Under the pieces are notes generated by a model. It did not search any database. It was not told the DNA's origin and worked only from the letters and a program-made list of their open reading frames with translations. Of a stretch of 64,000 bases of DNA, positions 32,049 to 48,670 are shown piece by piece. This stretch comes from Rubeoparvulum massiliense (lineage in GTDB: Bacteria; Bacillota; Bacilli; Rubeoparvulales; Rubeoparvulaceae), in NCBI RefSeq assembly GCF_001049895.1, contig NZ_CVPE01000005.1:1-64000 (forward strand). The letters are read 5' to 3'. Position 1 is the first letter of the stretch. Every line of letters starts with the position of its first letter. Both the position numbers and the translations under genes were made by a program.

Positions 32049-34004
32049 TTAATCCCTTGATGTTGTGGTAGTTGTAGTTGCATCATCAAAGTAAATGGGT
32101 TCTGGATGATCCACTACTTTATAGCCCCCAAGACGGTTCACTTCCTCCACGAATTGCGGTGAACTAATCACTTTGTAAAGGAGCCTTCCACCAGCACTTT
32201 CAAAGAATTCCTGAGTCATTAACAGATCATAAGACTCATCAGCTAGATAAATAAAATCCAACCCCATGGCCTTCGCTGCTGAGTAGATTCCTAATCCAAC
32301 CGAATGAGGTCGTTCCTTTACTTCTGCAGCCACACTGAGATGGGTAAACATCTCGCGATTGTAGCCCTCAATCTGTTCAGGAGAAATCCCTGCTTTTCGC
32401 AACAGATGATCAAACAGCACCCTTGTGCCTGCTCCCTTTTGTCGATTCACAAATTGAATCTCTTTTTTGACTAAGTCTGACACCTCATGAATTCCATCTG
32501 GATTCCCCTTGGGAACAAACCAACCTTGTGCTCGCTTTAAAAAGGGGAGCAAAACCACAGCCTTTCCTGTAGCAAAGCGTTGTACAAACGAGCGGTTATA
32601 CTCACCGGTCTCTGTATCGAGGAGATGAATACCTGCGAGGTGAGCTTCTCCCTTACGAATGGCTAAGATTCCAGCCATGCTTCCAGTATGAGCTGCGATA
32701 ATCTGCCGTTCCACATCACGAGTCCGCATATGGGAAGAGAGTAGATCGATGGTTAAATCATGACTTCCCGAGAATAGAATCGACTTATCGATGGCTGCTT
32801 GTGACTGATAAAGTTGAATCTCCACCTCTTCACCCTGTTCTAATCCTAAACTATCTGGAGGAACCACTAATAAGCCATCAGCACGTACCATGGACATGGT
32901 TACACCTGCTGCTCTAGTTAGAGGGAGAGCAATATACTGACCATCTACCTGCCCTACATTGACACGGACAAAGTCTTCTGCTCCCATATTAGATACCACA
33001 CGTCTTCCCAAACGTGCCTTCAAGGTGGAGCGCTGCGGTTCAGGAATTCCAAGATAATGACAGATTAAGGGACGCACAAACCACTCCATGGCTAGATATG
33101 CCGAGACTGGATAACCCGGTAAGCCAATGACAGGTTTACCATCGATCATGCCTAGAATAACTGGCTTACCTGGGCGCGTTGCTACACCATGGGTAAAGAC
33201 TTCACCGAGTTCATTGAGGATATGTACGGTATAATCTTCCGAGCCTGCTGATGAGCCTGCATTGACAATGACCAGATCAGCGGCTTGTACCTGTTCCCGT
33301 AGTGTTCTACGAAGTAAATCAGGATCATCCTTCGTAATGGGCTGAAGGAAAGGATCTCCTCCCCACTCTTCTACATAGCTAGCAAAAACCGTCCCATTAA
33401 ATTCAATAATATCCCCTGGATGCACCTCAGTCGTAGGTTGTACAAGCTCACTTCCAGTAGGAAGAATGGCTACCCGTGGTCGCTGTACTACAGGTACTTG
33501 TAAAATACCACCTGCTAATAGTGCACCGAGATCAACAGGGCGTAAGCGATGCCCCTGCGGAAGGATCATCTCACCATGCACCATATCCTCACCGATGGGG
33601 CGAATATCCTGCCATGGTGTAATCGGCTCAATAATTTCTACTGTATCATCATCCAATTGATGTATTTTTTCGATCATAATTACTGCATCCAATGGTGCTG
33701 GAATGGGGTCACCTGTATCCACAAAGATAAAATCCCGTCCCTTTTTCAAGGTGAGGGGATTCATCTCATGGGCTCCATAAGTGGTTTCTGCTCGCACTGC
33801 AATTCCATCCATAGCAGAAGCATGATAGTGAGGGGCAGACAGCTCAGCAAAAATAGGAGATGCAGTAATCCGCCCCAACGCTTGCTTCGTTGGCAACCAC
33901 TCTGTCTCTCGCTTCAAATTCCAAGCATTCAATAGCTCATCCCTTGCCACAATCCGAGGCTTATCCTCTAAATAAATCTGCCGTTGAAAATCCCCTGTTT
34001 TCAC
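32049..34004 (-). CDS. MoeA-type molybdopterin protein fused to a periplasmic-binding-like domain
   Basis: 651 residues. Residues 1-400 are MoeA-like: SAMDGIAVRAETT, the GDPIPAPLDAVIMIE region and the MoCF_BD motif VNAGSSAGSEDYTV with PGKPVILG and GLPGYPVSA. Residues 430-640 form a LysR-substrate/PBP-like domain (SHDLTIDLLSSH, RKGEAHLAGIHLLD, NRQKGAGTRVLFD, SVGLGIYSAAKA), which may sense molybdate or tungstate or a cofactor form. The GTG start follows GGAG. It is the last gene of the operon, 11 nt after the standalone moeA. This fusion is known in Bacillota. Confidence 0.88.
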   Translation of the reverse strand: MKTGDFQRQIYLEDKPRIVARDELLNAWNLKRETEWLPTKQALGRITASPIFAELSAPHYHASAMDGIAVRAETTYGAHEMNPLTLKKGRDFIFVDTGDPIPAPLDAVIMIEKIHQLDDDTVEIIEPITPWQDIRPIGEDMVHGEMILPQGHRLRPVDLGALLAGGILQVPVVQRPRVAILPTGSELVQPTTEVHPGDIIEFNGTVFASYVEEWGGDPFLQPITKDDPDLLRRTLREQVQAADLVIVNAGSSAGSEDYTVHILNELGEVFTHGVATRPGKPVILGMIDGKPVIGLPGYPVSAYLAMEWFVRPLICHYLGIPEPQRSTLKARLGRRVVSNMGAEDFVRVNVGQVDGQYIALPLTRAAGVTMSMVRADGLLVVPPDSLGLEQGEEVEIQLYQSQAAIDKSILFSGSHDLTIDLLSSHMRTRDVERQIIAAHTGSMAGILAIRKGEAHLAGIHLLDTETGEYNRSFVQRFATGKAVVLLPFLKRAQGWFVPKGNPDGIHEVSDLVKKEIQFVNRQKGAGTRVLFDHLLRKAGISPEQIEGYNREMFTHLSVAAEVKERPHSVGLGIYSAAKAMGLDFIYLADESYDLLMTQEFFESAGGRLLYKVISSPQFVEEVNRLGGYKVVDHPEPIYFDDATTTTTTSRD

Positions 34005-34015
34005 CTCGTCATCTC

Positions 34016-35245
34016 CTATCGTAATCGTATTACTGGAGCAAGTTCCCCTTGCAAGACGCCCTCTTTTTCTGCTGCAATCTCCAGTAAACCATCACTTTGT
34101 ACCAGGGTTGAGATTAACCCTGATTTGCCAATAATCGGTTCAGCCCACCACTCTCCCTCTTTCTCAAGCAGGCGTACTCGAATATAATCCGAACGACCTG
34201 CTGCGGAGTGAAGGTTTCTTGTGGATCGGGCGAACATATAAGGAGCAGTCTCCAGCTTCTCACCGCTAAGGCGTTGGAAGGCACGCTTCCCGAATCGTTG
34301 AAAAATCACCATGGCTGAGGCAGGATGTCCTGGTAAGCCGATTACCGGTTTTCCATTGGCATTGGCTATGATTGTTGGTTTTCCTGGTTTGATCGAGATC
34401 CCATGGACATAAACCCCTGGCTCCCCTAATTCTTGAATCACTTCTGTGGTGTAATCCTTTGCTCCCACAGAACTACCTCCAGACATAACCAACATATCAG
34501 CTTGCTTCAATAACTCTTCAGCTCTCTGCTTTAACGCCTCACGATTATCATGAACAATCCCACCATCAATATACTCGCCACCCCATTGACGAACCAATCC
34601 ACCAACGGTCATGCTATTAATATCCCGAATCTGGCCAGGCCTTAATTCCTTTTGAGCAGCAGGAACAATCTCGTCTCCAGAGGAAAAGTAGGCAATGCGA
34701 AGGGGACGATAGACATCCACATGGGTAATGCCTAAGGAAGCTAATGCACCTAGCTCTTGTGGGCGTAGGCGCGTTCCTTGCTCCATAATGATTGAACCCA
34801 GTTGCACATCCTCGCCTGTTCGGATCACATTCTCCCATGGTGCTACCTGATGGTACACATTAAGTAATCCATCCAAGTTCTCACAATGCTCTATCATAAC
34901 CACACTATCGGCACCAGATGGTAGCATACCACCTGTTGGAATGGAGATTGCTTCTCCAGCATGAAGTGGGGTCTCTGCCTGTTCCCCCATCTTCACTGAA
35001 CCTACTACCTGTAAAAAGCCTGGCATGGTTTCAGAGGAGCCAAATGTGTCACTGGCTCGTACTGCAAAGCCGTCTACCGTGGAACGAGAAAAGGGAGGAA
35101 CATGCTCTGGTGCCACGATGTCCGCCGCTAACACACGGCCAAGTGCCTCTAATAAAGGAAGTGTTTCCTTCTCCGTACAGGGTTTTACCTGTTGATCAAT
35201 TAAGCTTGTTGTCTCTTCCACACTTTTTACTGAAAAAAACTGCAC
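34016..35245 (-). CDS. moeA: Molybdopterin molybdenumtransferase MoeA
   Basis: 409 residues. It inserts molybdenum into adenylylated molybdopterin. Motifs: STVDGFAVRASDT, GGMLPSGADSVVMIEHCE, RTGEDVQLGS, the MoCF_BD core VMSGGSSVGAKDYT, and KPGKPTIIANANGKPVIGLPGHPASA (key residues PGKP and GLPGHP). The GTG start follows GGGAGGG. It is one of two MoeA-type proteins in tandem; possibly one serves Mo and the other W, but this cannot be read from sequence. Confidence 0.93.
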   Translation of the reverse strand: MQFFSVKSVEETTSLIDQQVKPCTEKETLPLLEALGRVLAADIVAPEHVPPFSRSTVDGFAVRASDTFGSSETMPGFLQVVGSVKMGEQAETPLHAGEAISIPTGGMLPSGADSVVMIEHCENLDGLLNVYHQVAPWENVIRTGEDVQLGSIIMEQGTRLRPQELGALASLGITHVDVYRPLRIAYFSSGDEIVPAAQKELRPGQIRDINSMTVGGLVRQWGGEYIDGGIVHDNREALKQRAEELLKQADMLVMSGGSSVGAKDYTTEVIQELGEPGVYVHGISIKPGKPTIIANANGKPVIGLPGHPASAMVIFQRFGKRAFQRLSGEKLETAPYMFARSTRNLHSAAGRSDYIRVRLLEKEGEWWAEPIIGKSGLISTLVQSDGLLEIAAEKEGVLQGELAPVIRLR

Positions 35246-35283: not shown

Positions 35284-35880
35284 TTATTCTTGTTCAGCAA
35301 TCTGCTGTGCCCGCTCATACTCTTCTGGACGATTCATATTGTAAAATGCTTCACCGATGGTGAGCTTCGCATTCTCCAGCTCTTTCTCATCAATATAACG
35401 AACCTTTACTTGTTCGAGGAGATCATTCATCCGAAGCTGATCACTCTTTAAGCATTCCTCAATCACCGGTACAAGTGCGCTTCGATAAACCGCAAACAAA
35501 GGATGTAATTGCCCCTCGATCCGAGGAACAACTGCATCAAAACCCTCTGCTTGTTCAACCAGATAGTGGGCAATTTCTTGGGAAATAAACGGCATATCAC
35601 AGGCAATTACTAGGGCATAAGGATTAGAGGACAAATCTAGTCCTGCATGAATCCCTGCCAGTGGTCCCTGACCAGGGTAACGATCGGTTGTGATCGGAAT
35701 CTGTAAGAATTGATAGGTTTCTGGATCATTGGTAACGAGAAGCACTTCGGGAAAGAGAAGCTGTAATCGATTACGTAAACGTGTAATATTCTGTTCTCCA
35801 CCTACAGGCAGAAGCGCTTTATTTGTTCCCATTCTACTTGACTTTCCACCAGCTAGGATAATTGCTGTCGCATTTAACAT
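35284..35880 (-). CDS. mobA: Molybdenum cofactor guanylyltransferase MobA
   Basis: 198 residues. It attaches GMP to molybdopterin to make the bis-MGD used by formate dehydrogenases. The nucleotidyltransferase signature ILAGGKSSRMGTNKALL is at residues 8-24, with GPLAGIHAGL and ACDMPFIS (metal-binding Asp). It sits between fdhE and moeA, so bis-MGD synthesis is tied to this enzyme. Confidence 0.93.
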   Translation of the reverse strand: MLNATAIILAGGKSSRMGTNKALLPVGGEQNITRLRNRLQLLFPEVLLVTNDPETYQFLQIPITTDRYPGQGPLAGIHAGLDLSSNPYALVIACDMPFISQEIAHYLVEQAEGFDAVVPRIEGQLHPLFAVYRSALVPVIEECLKSDQLRMNDLLEQVKVRYIDEKELENAKLTIGEAFYNMNRPEEYERAQQIAEQE

Positions 35881-35910: not shown

Positions 35911-36726
35911 TCAATTCTCCTGCTTTTTATCAGAAGGGTCAACTCCATAGCCGCGATTTTGCGCTACCAAATCCATGTGTAGTGTTTGAACATCCAATAA
36001 TGCAGGACGCGTTTTCTTGATCCGCTTCCGATCATCCACTACCTTCAAATACCCATGGCACTCTTCACATACATGGAGCTGGATGGTATCCTCCTCTTCC
36101 ACAGTGAAATATTTCATTGTTTTCGGATTTTGATTACCGCAATGTGAGCAGACGACACGGTTCTCATGCCATTCCCCTTCACAGCGTGGACAAACTAATG
36201 CCTTCCGACCGAGACGTTCCATTTTCGCCATACGGATCGGCTCACCACAGATCGGGCAGCCAGTGCCCTTCACATGCTGGTCGATCTTCGCCAACTCCTC
36301 CTGATAAACATGAGCTAACTCACGTAGAAAAGGTCTAATAGCATGCTCTGCCAAAAAGTGAGGTAACCAGCTCGCTACCCCTTCCTCCTCAGCTACCTGT
36401 TGAAAGTAATAAGTATTGCAGGCCACCGCTTCCTGCTGCCAACGTTCTGGATCTGCTCCAACTACTTTTAGCAAACGCTCAACATCCGGTTGCCAGCGTT
36501 GATCATATTCGCTGATCGCTGCAGCCAGTTGGGATATCCAATCTTGAAATAGCTTTAGATCTATATGGAATGGAATCTTCGTTACATGTGGGATCCCATC
36601 TGTTTTCAGGGGCCAGTTTGTTGGTAGAGAGTCATCGATTTGAACCTTTTTTTGCCATTCACTCTGCAACGCAACAATTTTCTCTTGCAACGCTAAATAT
36701 TGTTCTGGAACGACGTTGACACTCAT
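35911..36726 (-). CDS. fdhE: Formate dehydrogenase accessory protein FdhE
   Basis: 271 residues. Four CxxC pairs form zinc-ribbon/rubredoxin-like units: CPICGEP, CPRCEGEW, CSHCGNQ and CEECHGY. The ordering and the KALVCPRCEGEWHENR block fit FdhE, needed for maturation of respiratory formate dehydrogenases. The ATG at 36726 follows GAGGTGG. It lies downstream of the cytochrome b subunit gene after a strong hairpin. Confidence 0.9.
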   Translation of the reverse strand: MSVNVVPEQYLALQEKIVALQSEWQKKVQIDDSLPTNWPLKTDGIPHVTKIPFHIDLKLFQDWISQLAAAISEYDQRWQPDVERLLKVVGADPERWQQEAVACNTYYFQQVAEEEGVASWLPHFLAEHAIRPFLRELAHVYQEELAKIDQHVKGTGCPICGEPIRMAKMERLGRKALVCPRCEGEWHENRVVCSHCGNQNPKTMKYFTVEEEDTIQLHVCEECHGYLKVVDDRKRIKKTRPALLDVQTLHMDLVAQNRGYGVDPSDKKQEN

Positions 36727-36751
36727 GGTTGCCACCTCATTTCATCAAAGA

Positions 36752-36800: not shown

Positions 36801-37475
36801 TTATGCTTGTTTCTTTTCTTTTTCAAGCTCTTCAACCCAAAGGGGATAGTGTTCCTTTGCAAAATCGATAGTCACATCGCCCTTTGTCATTCCATGTAAA
36901 GAACCCTTTGCTTGGAAAACACTCATATAAACATGACCAACAACAACACCCACAGCTAATCCGACACCGATATCATGCATTGGATAAGCCCAGTTGACTA
37001 ATCCAGCTGGGAAGAGATGGGGGAACCACATCACGATCCCAGAAGTAATAATGAAGATCGCCATGAGAATCTGAAGAAGTGAATTCACTTTTTCCCCAGC
37101 GTTATAATACCCTTGAGGTGGAACTTCGGACTTCCCGCCAAAGAACTCTTTGGCAAATGGAAGGAAGAAGCCCACATCATTTTTCCGCCATGTAAAGATC
37201 TGCTTGATCCAGTGGAAGAAGCTCTTCGGATCAAAGAGAATAGCGATGAAGGTTGGCATGATAAACATCACAGCAAAGATACGATGTAGCAACCTTGCAC
37301 TAGCAGGACCACCAAAGACGGGATAGAGAAAATCGAAAGTTTCTGTGTACAATGGTAGCCCCGTTAGAAAGAGGGCAAAGAAGGCTGTAGCATTGAGCCA
37401 GTGCACAAAGATAATGGGCTTCGTAAAGCGTTTCACCATCTTGGGCTGGCTTGTGTTGACCGTCGTATTACTCAT
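36801..37475 (-). CDS. fdhI: Formate dehydrogenase cytochrome b556 (gamma) subunit
   Basis: 224 residues with four transmembrane helices. Likely heme-b His residues are in IIFVHWLNATAFF, RLLHRIFAVMF and AYPMHDIGVGLAVGVVVGHVYM. It anchors the enzyme and passes electrons to menaquinone. The ATG at 37475 overlaps the fdhB stop (ATGAGTAA, 8 nt) and has AAGGAG upstream; the longer frame to 37541 lies within fdhB. Confidence 0.9.
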   Translation of the reverse strand: MSNTTVNTSQPKMVKRFTKPIIFVHWLNATAFFALFLTGLPLYTETFDFLYPVFGGPASARLLHRIFAVMFIMPTFIAILFDPKSFFHWIKQIFTWRKNDVGFFLPFAKEFFGGKSEVPPQGYYNAGEKVNSLLQILMAIFIITSGIVMWFPHLFPAGLVNWAYPMHDIGVGLAVGVVVGHVYMSVFQAKGSLHGMTKGDVTIDFAKEHYPLWVEELEKEKKQA

Positions 37476-38292
37476 GACGCTCATCTCCTTCCCCTTCATG
37501 CTCTTCTTTCTTACTAAACAATTTGGATGCGACGAAGGCACTCACTACCCCAAATGTGGTAGCACCCATAAACAGCTTGCCAAGAGGCTGTGCATAATCC
37601 TTCCAAACCGTTGCAGTTACTGGAACCTTTGGATTGGATGGTAAATCATAGACTTCTGGCTCATCTGCTAATACATAGACCGTATGGGTTCCATTGATGC
37701 TCTGAGGATTGTAAATATTGGCTTTTGGGAAGCGTTTCTTTGCTACTTCAAGACGTTCAGCGGCCAAAGCTAGCATTTCATCCTCTTCACCAAAGACGAG
37801 ACAGTCGGTATGACAAGCTTGTACACATGCTGGTTGTAACCCATTTTCGAGACGATCGGTACAGAGGGTACATTTTTGTGCACGACGATACTTCTTCCCA
37901 CTTTCATCCACATGATTAGCCAGTTGGATGACATCGAAGGGACAAGCTTGTGTACAGTAACCGCATCCTACACATTTGTCATAGTCGACAACAACAGAAC
38001 CAAACTCCGTATGACCGAGTGCATCCTCTGGACATACCTTCACGCAAGCCGCATCAGTACAGTGAAGACAGGCAGCATGACGGAAAAGGAACTCATATCC
38101 ACCATCAGCAGTCTCTTGCTCCTTAAAGGTAATCAAATTCCAGACATTCGCGGTTAGATGCTCGTGGGATTGGTAACTTCCCTGAAATTTCTCCGGCTCA
38201 GCTGGGAGGTCATTCCAGTTCTTGCACGCTACCATACAGGCACGACAGCCATCACAACGAGTTACGTCAACCAGTTTAATATATTTTGCCAT
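37468..38292 (-). CDS. fdhB: Formate dehydrogenase iron-sulfur (beta) subunit
   Basis: 274 residues. Four ferredoxin-type 4Fe-4S cluster motifs: CDGCRACMVACKNWN, CLHCTDAACVKVCP, CVGCGYCTQACP and CTLCTDR...CVQACHTDC. A C-terminal membrane helix (about 243-262, LFMGATTFGVVSAFVASKLF) anchors it to the outer membrane face. It relays electrons from FdhA to cytochrome b. ATG overlaps the fdhA stop as TAATG. Confidence 0.93.
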   Translation of the reverse strand: MAKYIKLVDVTRCDGCRACMVACKNWNDLPAEPEKFQGSYQSHEHLTANVWNLITFKEQETADGGYEFLFRHAACLHCTDAACVKVCPEDALGHTEFGSVVVDYDKCVGCGYCTQACPFDVIQLANHVDESGKKYRRAQKCTLCTDRLENGLQPACVQACHTDCLVFGEEDEMLALAAERLEVAKKRFPKANIYNPQSINGTHTVYVLADEPEVYDLPSNPKVPVTATVWKDYAQPLGKLFMGATTFGVVSAFVASKLFSKKEEHEGEGDERHE

Positions 38293-41264
38293 TAGTCAGC
38301 CCTCCTTATATCACAGAGGAATGCTTTATACTCTGGAATTTTTGCATTGGGGTCTGCTACGTGCGGTGTTAAGCGGTTTGCATTATCCCCAGTAGCGATT
38401 CCTTGGAAGCCATATTGCCATGGCATACCAAGCTGGTGTACCTTCTTCCCTCTGATTGTAAAGGCAGCAAGACGCTTGGTTACAAGGGCATAGGCCTCAA
38501 TGTTACCACGGGCTGATTCGACGATTACACGATCTTTATTCTTGATGCCCTTCTCCTGGGCTAAATCTTCACCAATCTCTACGAACATATGAGGCATCAG
38601 TTCTGATAGCCACTCTTGATTCCGTGTCATGGAACCAGATTGCCAGTGTTCTGATACACGATAGGTGGTGGCGACAATGGGATAGCGTTCTGCATCCCCC
38701 TTAGGATTATGGTCACCTGTGTACACCTTCGCAGTTGGGCTAAAGTTAATGGATGAGAATGCATTGGGCACTGGGCTTTCAAAAGGCTCATAATGCTCTG
38801 GGAATGGTCCATCACTCACTGGTCCAAAGATGGCGCCTTTTCCATCCTTCTGCATGATAAAGGCATCTGTTCCACCAGGGCCATCAGGCGCTTTGGTTCC
38901 GCCAAAGTCTGGAATATCATAGCCAACCCATTTTCCTTGAGCTGCATCCCACCAAATATTCTTCTTATTCTCGCTCCATGGTTTTCCGCTTGGATCACAG
39001 GAAGCACGATTGTAGAGAATCCGCCGATTCATCGGCCAAGCATAGCCCCAGCCTTGGAAGTTACCCATCCCTTCGTCAGTATTATCCTGACTCATGGAAA
39101 GATCCTTGCCTTCTTCAGGATAGAACCCACTGTAAATCCAGTTACCACAGATGGTAGAACCATCATCAGCGAGCTTCGTGAAGTTCTTTAGTAATTTACC
39201 TGTGGCTGTCTCATAGCCATTGATCTCACGGTGAACTAGATCCATATCGGGATGGTCACTTTCACCATAATTCCAGAAGAGTGATTGGATTGGCTTATCC
39301 TTTGGATCGGTGCTGGTTTTATAAAGATCTTGAATTCTCCGGGCCAGCATATGGACGATTTCTAAGTCAGCCTTTGATTCACCCTTCGGTGGAATCGCTT
39401 GCCAACGATATTGCATCCAACGACCACTATTGGTAACTGTTCCTTCTTTTTCATAGGAGGAACATGCTGGTAAGAAGAAGACTTCTGTTTGGATTTCTGC
39501 TGGATTGCTACCAGCTTTCTCCTTCCAGAAGACAGATGTTTCTGTTTCCCAGAGGTCCACAGCCACCATCCATTTTAGGTTTGCTAACGCTTTATGTTCC
39601 TTCGTTGCATTAGGTCCACCGACAATGGGGTTCTGTCCAAAGAGTAGAGCGCCTTCAATCTCCCCACGAAGCATCGATTCAAAGAGTGCAATATGAGAAC
39701 AATCCTTGTTGTGCTTAGGTAGATAATGGTAGCCGAACTCATTCTCAGGTGTCGCATTAGGACCATAGAAAGCCTTGAGCATACTTATTAACCATTTTGG
39801 TGTATTGGTTTTAAAGCCACTCGGTGGTGTTTCTGTTTTTAAATAATCTTCAAGGGTTGCATGCTTCGGTGCTGCAAAAGGTGCATTCATGTAACCTGTG
39901 ATCTGGTGATACAAGAGACCGAAGTCAGTGGACCCTTGCACATTGGACTCTCCGCGGAGAGCATTGACCCCTCCACCAGGGCGGCCAATATTACCAAGTA
40001 GCAATTGAAGCATGGCGTAGACTCGGACATTTTGCGTACCCTTCGAGTGTTGCGTTGCACCCATGGCGTAGAGCAATGTACCCGTCTTGTCTACGGCACT
40101 AGTACTACAGAATGTTTTTGCAACTTCTAAGTAAACATCCTTCGGTGTACCTGTAACAGCGGTTACTGTGTCTACATCATAGCGTGCATAGTGTTTCTTT
40201 AATAATTGGAATACAGAGCGGGGATGTTGAAGTGTTTCATCCTTTAGAATGTTTCCTTCTTCATCCTTTTGGAAAGTCCATGTACTCTTATCATAGTCAC
40301 GAGCTAGTTCATCATAGCCACTGAATAGACCATCCTCAAAGTTGAATCCTTCGTCAACAAGGAACGAAGCGTTCGTATAGTTGACTACGTAGTCATGATG
40401 ATAGAGATTGTTTTGGAGAGCGTAATTAATTATGCCACCGATAAAGGCAATATCTGTACCTGAACGTAGAGGTGCGTAGAGATCTGCTTGTGTTGACGTC
40501 CGTGTATATCGCGGGTCAACAGAGATAACTTTCGCTCCCCGTTCTTTTGCTTTATGAATCCATTTAAAGCTAATTGGATGGTTCTCTGCTGGGTTACATC
40601 CAATGATTAAAATCACATCAGAATGTTGTAAATCGTTCCAGTGATTTGTCATTGCTCCACGACCAAATGAAGGTGCCAGACCGGCAACCGTGGAGCTGTG
40701 TCATATCCGGGCTTGGTGCTCAATATGCGTGAGCCCCAAGGAGCGCATTAACTTCACGATGAGGTAGGTCTCTTCGTTATCGAGAGCAGCCCCACCAAAA
40801 CAAGCCATGGCATCAGTTTTGTTTACCGTGATTCCATTCTCTTCTTGGACAAATGTACGTGCACGAGTCTCTTTAATCCGTTGAGCAATGGTTTGCAGCA
40901 TCCATTCCCAATCTTTTTCTTCCCATTTATCACTACCTGGTGCACGGTATAATGGTTTCATAATTCGGCGGTCTGATGTATAGACCTGGCGAATAGTGGT
41001 TCCTTTACTACAGAGAGTTCCCTCATTAATTGGACTATCAGGATTTCCTTCTGTATAGATCACATCATTATCTTTGGTGTGGACTAAAATACCACAGCCA
41101 ACTGCACAATATGGACAAACCGTAGGGGTTACTTTCGCATCAGCGATTTTTAGCTTGGATGCTTGAGCATGGGCATCTTGAAGATTGAAGCCAAGCTCAG
41201 TTACAGCTAGTGTAACCGCTGTGGCGCCGGACAATTTAAGAAACTGTCGACGATTCAAATCCAT
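38292..41264 (-). CDS. fdhA: Formate dehydrogenase catalytic subunit, selenocysteine-containing
   Basis: 990 residues when the in-frame TGA at 40701-40703 is read as selenocysteine (residue 188). The N-terminus is a Tat signal (RR at 5-6, RRQFLKLSG), then the 4Fe-4S motif C50-x2-C53-x3-C57-x27-C85. The Sec sits in HQARI-U-HSSTVAGLAPSFGRGAMTNHW (U replacing Cys), exactly where FdnG/FdhF-type enzymes have it. The rest has bis-MGD domain motifs such as YTRTSTQADLYAPLRSGTDIAF and ALRGESNVQGSTDFGLL. It oxidises formate to CO2 outside the membrane and pairs with FdhB/FdhI. Length matches FdnG/FdoG. The frame is open on both sides of the TGA with no other interruption. Confidence 0.95.
40655..40703 (-). 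promoter_or_regulatory. UGA selenocysteine codon and bacterial SECIS element
   Basis: Directly after the UGA (40701-40703), minus-strand GGU-U-GCC (40683-40689) pairs with GGC-ACC (40672-40677), leaving a bulged U and the apical loop GGUCU. An outer stem CUCCAC/GUGGAG (40690-40695 with 40655-40660) extends it. The loop starts 18 nt after the UGA, the same spacing as I recall for E. coli fdhF. The bulged U and GGUC loop are the known SelB-binding determinants. Confidence 0.92.
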
Positions 41265-41333: not shown

Positions 41334-42101
41334 CTAATTGGTGCTCTCCCCAGCAACCATCTCAGTGACATCATCGAGGATTCTTCCACAGGATGTGTAG
41401 ACCAATGCCATTTTGCCACGGACATAGCCAACCACTTCGATATGGAGAAAATTGGCTAATTGGATCGCCTGCTTCGTTGCTGCCGTCCGTGAGCCAACGA
41501 TTCCAAAACCAAAGCGGGCAGCTTTGGCCAGCATTTCGTACGAGACCCGACCCGTTGTTAGCAGAATTAAATCTGCAGGATCTAAGCCTTCGCGCAATGC
41601 ATGACCGATCACTTTATCTACTGCATTATGGCGGCCGATATCCTCTCGAACCGTAATTACTCCCTGACGATCCACAATACAAGCTCCGTGCATACCACCT
41701 GTAGCGAGATATAATGGAGATTGTAATGCAAATTCGTGCCTTTTCTTTAAGAGATAGGTCATGGAGGCGGTTCGATTGGAGTTCACCTTACGGAATTTTT
41801 TCACATCTGTCATGGAGAAAAATGTGATTCCTTTGCCACATCCAGCAGTAAAGTGCTTGCGACCTTGAGCAAAATGTTCTGCGTCAAAGTTCCTCCCCAG
41901 CTCAGCAAAGATTCTTCCTTGCTCTGCATCTATGATCAAACCTTTTAGGTCACTGGGCGTATCAATAATTCCTTCCGTAAACAGATAGCCAATTGCCCAA
42001 TCTTCTAAATCTAGATTGGTTAACTGGTAGGTGGCCAACTCCACTCCGTTCAAGTATAAGGTGATAGGATACTCATCAGGACAGGATTTACGTGGATTCA
42101 C
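41334..42101 (-). CDS. fdhD: Formate dehydrogenase sulfurtransferase FdhD
   Basis: 255 residues. It transfers sulfur to the molybdenum of bis-MGD before insertion into FdhA. Motifs: LAIGYLFTEGII, the catalytic-loop cysteine in TAGCGKG, TGGMHGACIV, VREDIGRHNAVDKVIG and TGRVSYEMLAKAARFG. Many FdhDs have two catalytic cysteines (CxxC); only one is visible in this loop. The GTG start follows AGGGTGG. It is the first gene of the operon reading leftward, 69 nt before fdhA. Confidence 0.93.
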   Translation of the reverse strand: MNPRKSCPDEYPITLYLNGVELATYQLTNLDLEDWAIGYLFTEGIIDTPSDLKGLIIDAEQGRIFAELGRNFDAEHFAQGRKHFTAGCGKGITFFSMTDVKKFRKVNSNRTASMTYLLKKRHEFALQSPLYLATGGMHGACIVDRQGVITVREDIGRHNAVDKVIGHALREGLDPADLILLTTGRVSYEMLAKAARFGFGIVGSRTAATKQAIQLANFLHIEVVGYVRGKMALVYTSCGRILDDVTEMVAGESTN

Positions 42102-47213: not shown

Positions 47214-48416
47214 TTACGGACGTTTCCGCATGACCAAGGAGAGTCCCCCAATCATATATAGGTAGCGAGCATCAATCAATTTCTTCATCAAGGCTGCAGT
47301 AGAACCAAAGAACTTACGTTTACCCATAAAACCAATGCCTTCGCCCTTCCCTAGTGAAGCAACTGTACCTTTAAAATGATATTTGAACGCTTCTAGGGTG
47401 GCATCATTGCGTACTAATTTAGCGAGATTAAGGGCTACAGTCTCACCTTGCTGTACAGCAATCTGTGCGGTCGGTGGATAGGGGCGACCAGACTCTTCGT
47501 TAATAATCAAGGCATTATCTCCCACTACAAATACTTCTTCATGTCCAGGGATTCGTAGATACTCATCCACCTTGACACGGCCACGCATCACTTCAAACCC
47601 AGCTGCTTCAATAAGATGGTTGCCTCTTACGCCAAGGGTAGATACGATGGTACCCGCTTTGATCTCCTGCCCATTGGCCAAGACAACACCATCTGCAAAG
47701 CATTGCTTAATTGGAGTATTGGTAATAAAGGTAACACCTTTTTTCTCCAGTACATCCTTTGCATAATCAACCAATTCCTGATCAAAGCCAGGCATGATCG
47801 TTGGCGCTGCTTCAATATCATAGATTTTAACCAAGTGGGGATCCACATCATATTGCTTGCAAAGCTTTGGAATACGGTCAGCTAATTCTCCAACAAACTC
47901 AATACCAGTAAAGCCTGCTCCACCAATGACAAATGTTAAGTATTCAGGATGATCCGGCTCATTATTATAGCGGGAAAACATGTATTCTATATGTTGTCGT
48001 AGCTTACGGACACTGTTAATACTACGAATTAGGAAGGCATGCTCCAGCATTCCTGGAATACCAAATGTTTCTGCTTCCGATCCTAGTCCAATCACGAGAT
48101 AATCATAAGGAACTTCGGTTCCATCTTCTAAATGAACAACTTTCTCTTCCTTATTAATATCTGAAACAGTGCCACGAATAAAGTTGGTTCGATTCGTATT
48201 GATCAGTGTTTCAACATCCACTCTCACTTGGTCATGATGGCCTGTACCTGCTGCTGGTACATGCAAGTGCGTGGTGATATAATGATACTCATGCTTGTTA
48301 ATTAATGTAACCTCAGCTTCGTGATAGTGAAGCTGTTTCTCCAAACGAAGTGCAGTCATTAGTCCACCATACCCAGCGCCTAAAATGACAATTTTACTTG
48401 TGTTATTCATCTCCAT
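47214..48416 (-). CDS. yumB: Type II NADH dehydrogenase / NAD(P)/FAD oxidoreductase (YumB-like)
   Basis: 400 residues. An N-terminal FAD dinucleotide fold (VILGAGYGGLMTALRLE), an NAD fold with FVIGGAGFTGIEFVGEL, and EVFVVGDNALI followed by the PPTAQIAVQQGE motif typical of NDH-2. It probably passes electrons from NADH to menaquinone at the inner membrane surface, with the C-terminal helix binding the membrane. The ATG at 48416 follows GGAGAG. It is divergent from yumC. Confidence 0.88.
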   Translation of the reverse strand: MEMNNTSKIVILGAGYGGLMTALRLEKQLHYHEAEVTLINKHEYHYITTHLHVPAAGTGHHDQVRVDVETLINTNRTNFIRGTVSDINKEEKVVHLEDGTEVPYDYLVIGLGSEAETFGIPGMLEHAFLIRSINSVRKLRQHIEYMFSRYNNEPDHPEYLTFVIGGAGFTGIEFVGELADRIPKLCKQYDVDPHLVKIYDIEAAPTIMPGFDQELVDYAKDVLEKKGVTFITNTPIKQCFADGVVLANGQEIKAGTIVSTLGVRGNHLIEAAGFEVMRGRVKVDEYLRIPGHEEVFVVGDNALIINEESGRPYPPTAQIAVQQGETVALNLAKLVRNDATLEAFKYHFKGTVASLGKGEGIGFMGKRKFFGSTAALMKKLIDARYLYMIGGLSLVMRKRP

Positions 48417-48670
48417 CACCCATCTCTCCATAATTTATATACCTAGAATAGCACTAGATGCCAGTAAAACGTCACGATTTTGTAACAATCTATTTATCTT
48501 TATAATATGTCTTTTTAGATCTTTTTTCAATTGCAAACGCTCACATTTCAGCATTTCCAATCTATTTTAGCATCTTTGAGAAATTTAAACTCTTCCTTTT
48601 CATTTTTAGATATGTGATAATGTTAGTTGGATATTTAGACACAAATAGACGCGACTACGGAGGTGCGGAG

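Follow-up and report, generated by a model that had tools for sequence, protein, structure and literature searches.

Closest described systems

The most common selenoprotein of bacteria is selenocysteine (Sec)-containing FdhA, with 822 organisms (PMC5029168, see also PMC1794560). Among the closest known systems are FdnGHI and FdoGHI of Escherichia coli, whose catalytic subunit has a Tat-type leader and carries Sec beside His in the motif QAR-[IV]-U-H. Their SECIS element, with a bulged U and a G-U loop, lies directly after the UGA, and fdoGHI is also linked to fdhD and fdhE. All these features, and the same subunits, recur in the window, i.e., the whole stretch of 64,000 nucleotides of Rubeoparvulum massiliense analyzed here. 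The window differs from E. coli in that its apical stem closes with a C-G pair under a GGUCU loop (AGUCU in E. coli), in that the proteins are only about 44% identical, and in that the run of genes continues past fdhE with cofactor genes. Among solved structures, the best match is to the Sec formate dehydrogenases of Desulfovibrio (1h0h and related chains), with Sec aligned at the same site. The closest relatives of known structure are Sec formate dehydrogenases: the D. gigas enzyme (1h0h), a series of chains, among them 6sdr, that bear the name "selenocysteine-containing formate dehydrogenase alpha subunit", and FdnG of E. coli (1kqf).

The FdnG proteins of Neobacillus, Mesobacillus, Cytobacillus, Schinkia, Ammoniphilus, and others share 63-71% full-length identity with that of the window and have the same TGA and the same apical hairpin; no functional difference from them was found. 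A literature search for Sec formate dehydrogenases in the relevant Bacillales genera yielded nothing specific. FdnG-type Sec genes have long been known, and the copy in the window is one more member of this group, ordinary and expected.

An FdnG-type gene with an in-frame TGA

Translated, fdnG is a single 990-residue frame whose only internal stop is the TGA at residue 188. The sequence-only reading had described two open frames joined in phase by this TGA, which is indeed what we find, and we add that they lie on the minus strand. It had also assigned the product to the FdnG-type Sec formate dehydrogenases. This assignment stands: the match to TIGR01553 (1293.8 bits, curated cut-off 814.2) covers residues 3-987, i.e., the full length of the protein, and runs across the TGA, and the context of residue 188 is HIEHQARI-U-HSSTVAGLAPSF. 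Domain matches cover Fe4S4, molybdopterin, and dinucleotide binding (PF04879, PF00384, and PF01568). The protein also has a twin-arginine leader (RRQFLK), which scores 22.6 bits for TAT_signal, just below the cut-off of 22.7. In the homologs L100, L125, L126, and L130 the column of residue 188 is occupied by Cys, and the UGA falls at a conserved Cys/Sec position, as expected of a selenoprotein.

That the frame holds a stop could also be accounted for by a pseudogene, or by a sequencing error in which TGC or TGT was misread as TGA. Yet, TGA is found in all 70 Bacilli sequences, a SECIS follows it, the sel genes are present in the genome, and the remaining frame is intact. The conservation of the TGA refutes this explanation, to which we give next to no weight. 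A chance in-phase join is ruled out by the homology spanning the TGA, by the SECIS_3 match, and by the conservation of the TGA. The join alone would be no proof, because the one other such join within the window, at position 35913 between fdhE and mobA, lies at an operon junction. We considered this second TGA as a further Sec site and rejected it, since it is a plain junction between operon genes. Hence, the gene almost certainly encodes a selenium-using FdnG-type formate dehydrogenase with Sec at residue 188, where homology is the basis for the predicted insertion. Gene prediction that treats TGA purely as a stop would cut fdnG in two.

The SECIS element

A SECIS with a bulged U and a GGUCU loop 18 nt past the UGA had been proposed, and the SECIS_3 match falls at that very site (Table 1). 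The apical hairpin reads GGU-U-GCC-[GGUCU]-GGC-ACC, and its loop corresponds to nucleotides 19-23 after the UGA, leaving 18 nt between. The free energy of the hairpin (-15.3 kcal/mol, z -0.85) is unexceptional by itself, and the SECIS fold is about 1.7 kcal/mol costlier than the minimum free energy fold of the same stretch, which is slightly different.

The patterns of conservation are far more informative. The hairpin codons ACG GTT GCC GGT CTG are the same, wobble bases included, in 70 of 70 Bacilli sequences, and the next codon is GCA in 66 of the 70. At other fourfold-degenerate conserved codons nearby, the commonest wobble base averages 58%, whereas the five in the hairpin never vary; therefore, the RNA itself is under selection. 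We also compared 66 distinct sequences, some of them from Clostridia, Desulfuromonadota, and Proteobacteria. All 66 share U14, G20, and U23, and U21 varies once. The pair 15-27 is found as U-A, U-G, C-G, G-C, and A-U, and this covariation supports the stem. The apical hairpin is thus near-invariant across Bacillota and recognizable in Proteobacteria. Conservation, and not thermodynamics, is what confirms the predicted element as a real SECIS.

Table 1. Features of the fdn locus, in window coordinates.
Feature	Position	Strand	Evidence
fdhD, formate dehydrogenase sulfurtransferase	41334..42101	-	TIGR00129 161.5 bits, over cut-off 140.9
fdnG, catalytic subunit of formate dehydrogenase-N, 990 aa, predicted Sec188	38292..41264	-	TIGR01553, Pfam, translation
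In-frame TGA, read as Sec188	40701..40703	-	Translation; TGA in 70/70 Bacilli sequences (window's included)
SECIS element, Rfam SECIS_3	40648..40706	-	63.6 bits, gathering score 63, E 1.7e-12
Apical SECIS hairpin GGUUGCCGGUCUGGCACC, bulged U and GGUCU loop	40672..40689	-	Sequence
fdnH, iron-sulphur beta subunit	37468..38292	-	TIGR01582 220.7 bits, E 2e-65, below equivalog cut-off 334.7; 4Fe-4S domains
fdnI, cytochrome b gamma subunit	36801..37541	-	TIGR01583 111.8 bits (cut-off 115.85); PF01292 73.8 bits
fdhE-like accessory protein	35911..36735	-	TIGR01562 61.3 bits, below cut-off; FdhE_C above cut-off
mobA, molybdenum cofactor guanylyltransferase	35284..35880	-	NF011056 E 1.9e-59, TIGR02665 E 5.9e-34, both below cut-off
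moeA, molybdopterin molybdotransferase	34016..35245	-	NF007960 E 5.6e-94, below cut-off
moeA and PBP-like domain fusion, molybdopterin biosynthesis	32049..34004	-	NF011068 740.6 bits, cut-off 534; PF12727

Operon and proposed function

The closely spaced minus-strand genes follow the order fdhD, fdnG, fdnH, fdnI, fdhE, mobA, moeA, and the moeA-PBP fusion, which is a complete FDH-N set together with sulfuration and cofactor genes. As in FDH-N enzymes, the beta and gamma subunits directly follow fdnG, which has the Tat leader; the matches of fdnH and fdnI are significant and sub-equivalog. That some subunits score below the equivalog cut-offs is expected, since the lineage is divergent. The translation of fdnH has a hydrophobic segment at its C terminus. 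FdnG, FdnH, and FdnI almost certainly make up a respiratory, membrane-bound formate dehydrogenase of the standard FdnGHI type.

By homology, SelB loaded with Sec-tRNA(Sec) would bind the hairpin just past the UGA and allow the insertion of Sec at residue 188, next to His189. FdhD, FdhE, and the products of the adjacent mobA and moeA genes would help to fit the bis-MGD cofactor. The formate dehydrogenase of D. gigas uses tungsten and is not known to have a cytochrome b subunit, unlike the operon of the window. Either Mo or W could serve as the metal here, because the best solved matches include the D. gigas enzyme and other Sec formate dehydrogenases as well as E. coli FdnG. The folded enzyme would then be exported by the Tat pathway and probably oxidize formate outside the membrane. 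If the analogy with E. coli holds, the electrons would pass through the iron-sulphur clusters of FdnH to the cytochrome b FdnI and then to menaquinone.

The selenocysteine machinery of the genome

The use of this UGA implies a host with selA, selB, selC, and selD, as had been surmised from the window, and the 2.84-Mb genome (97% complete, in 6 contigs) carries all four. The selB gene (contig C6, 408097-409980; 370.6 bits) encodes the GTPase, SelB beta-barrel, and winged-helix domains. The tRNA-Sec gene selC (C6:414170) scores 62.6 bits in Rfam and was given the anticodon TCA (UCA in the RNA) by ARAGORN. The selA gene (C6:225986, 579 bits) adjoins selD (390 bits).

Two further genes with an in-frame UGA were observed. 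The selD gene has its own TGA, in the context SSKSG-U-GCKIGP (C6 ~224820-225902, plus strand; L022:5821-6903), and the hairpin downstream of it is without the GGUCU loop. The other gene encodes a second, FdhF-like formate dehydrogenase of 693 aa with U139 (C5 ~527167-529248, minus strand; L113:9168-11249). It stands alone and matches TIGR01591 with 787.2 bits (cut-off 666.25). Its core, UGA-15nt-GCCGGTCTGGC, is identical to that of fdnG, and its U14 can pair with A28. Searching the genome with the UGA-plus-core pattern for more FdnG-like SECIS elements gave exact matches only at the two formate dehydrogenases.

The pairable U14 in a second gene with identical core and spacing, together with the selD hairpin lacking GGUCU, hints that the SelB of this genome may accept SECIS elements without an obligatory bulged U. 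We regard this as a doubtful but conceivable reading; if true, this SelB would follow recognition rules other than those of the E. coli protein. Sampling of the order gave the genome of the window alone, and for this isolated lineage, at the rank of order within Bacilli, the data document a complete Sec-decoding trait and at least three selenoprotein genes with a UGA.

Distribution in Bacilli

The Sec trait had been thought uncommon in Bacillales. This is not what we observe: among 399 sampled Bacilli genomes, selA was over the cut-off in 85, and the genome collection holds about 70 Bacilli loci with the same TGA gene. The Sec trait is thus a recurrent minority trait in Bacilli and no oddity. 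FdnG was over the cut-off in 19 of the 399 genomes. The 16 genomes with a TGA-containing FdnG all have selA over the cut-off, and the 3 with a stop-free Cys-FdnG, from family f25, gave no selA match in this survey. These three loci (L125, L126, and L130, in genomes G058, G024, and G087, respectively) present a Cys-FdnG in a family in which no sampled genome gave a selA match, so that the Sec/Cys swap goes along with the Sec trait.

Origin of the operon

The resemblance of the SECIS to that of E. coli had raised the possibility that the operon was acquired. An origin in an enteric or another proteobacterium would explain why the apical hairpin and GGUCU loop are E. coli-like, with 42 of 57 nt over the SECIS the same as in E. 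coli fdnG. The GC content of the operon, 0.459 against 0.436 for the window and at the top end of its 10-kb stretches, also goes in this direction. However, the FdnG tree places the protein of the window within a Bacilli clade, next to Clostridia (Syntrophomonadaceae and Thermincola) and far from E. coli and Ensifer, and not with Proteobacteria as such an acquisition would entail. The AU test rejects a constrained grouping with E. coli, Plesiomonas, and Ensifer (p-AU 8.4e-67). Its identity is 71% to Bacilli and about 44% to E. coli, and essentially all Bacilli homologs have the same hairpin. The tree and the AU test refute a donor near the sampled Proteobacteria, and we find transfer from any proteobacterium extremely improbable. 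Given these two results, the E. coli-like geometry stems from shared SelB recognition. It is a deeply conserved SelB-binding feature and no mark of transfer.

A different possibility is that the gene, the Sec trait, or both moved between lineages within Bacillota, and were not strictly vertically inherited. The patchy spread of FdnG and selA across the class (19 and 85 of 399 genomes) is consistent with this. Furthermore, the FdnG of Ammoniphilus (Paenibacillaceae) sits among Bacillaceae sequences, and that of the window is placed beside G012 with an SH-aLRT of only 93. Horizontal transfer of selenium traits has been documented (PMC1794560 and PMC5029168), which also counts in favor of such movements. 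Repeated loss would nevertheless give the same pattern. We consider transfer within Bacillota plausible, at somewhat less than an even chance.

Other features of the window

Two minor observations concern regions of the window outside the operon. The minus-strand gene at 47214-48431 encodes a flavoprotein oxidoreductase akin to two families, Nterm_to_SelD and type III sulfide:quinone reductase, with scores below the cut-offs of both. At 185-244, also on the minus strand, a Bacillaceae-1 RNA (Rfam RF01690, 41.4 bits) lies beside a cluster of five tRNAs.
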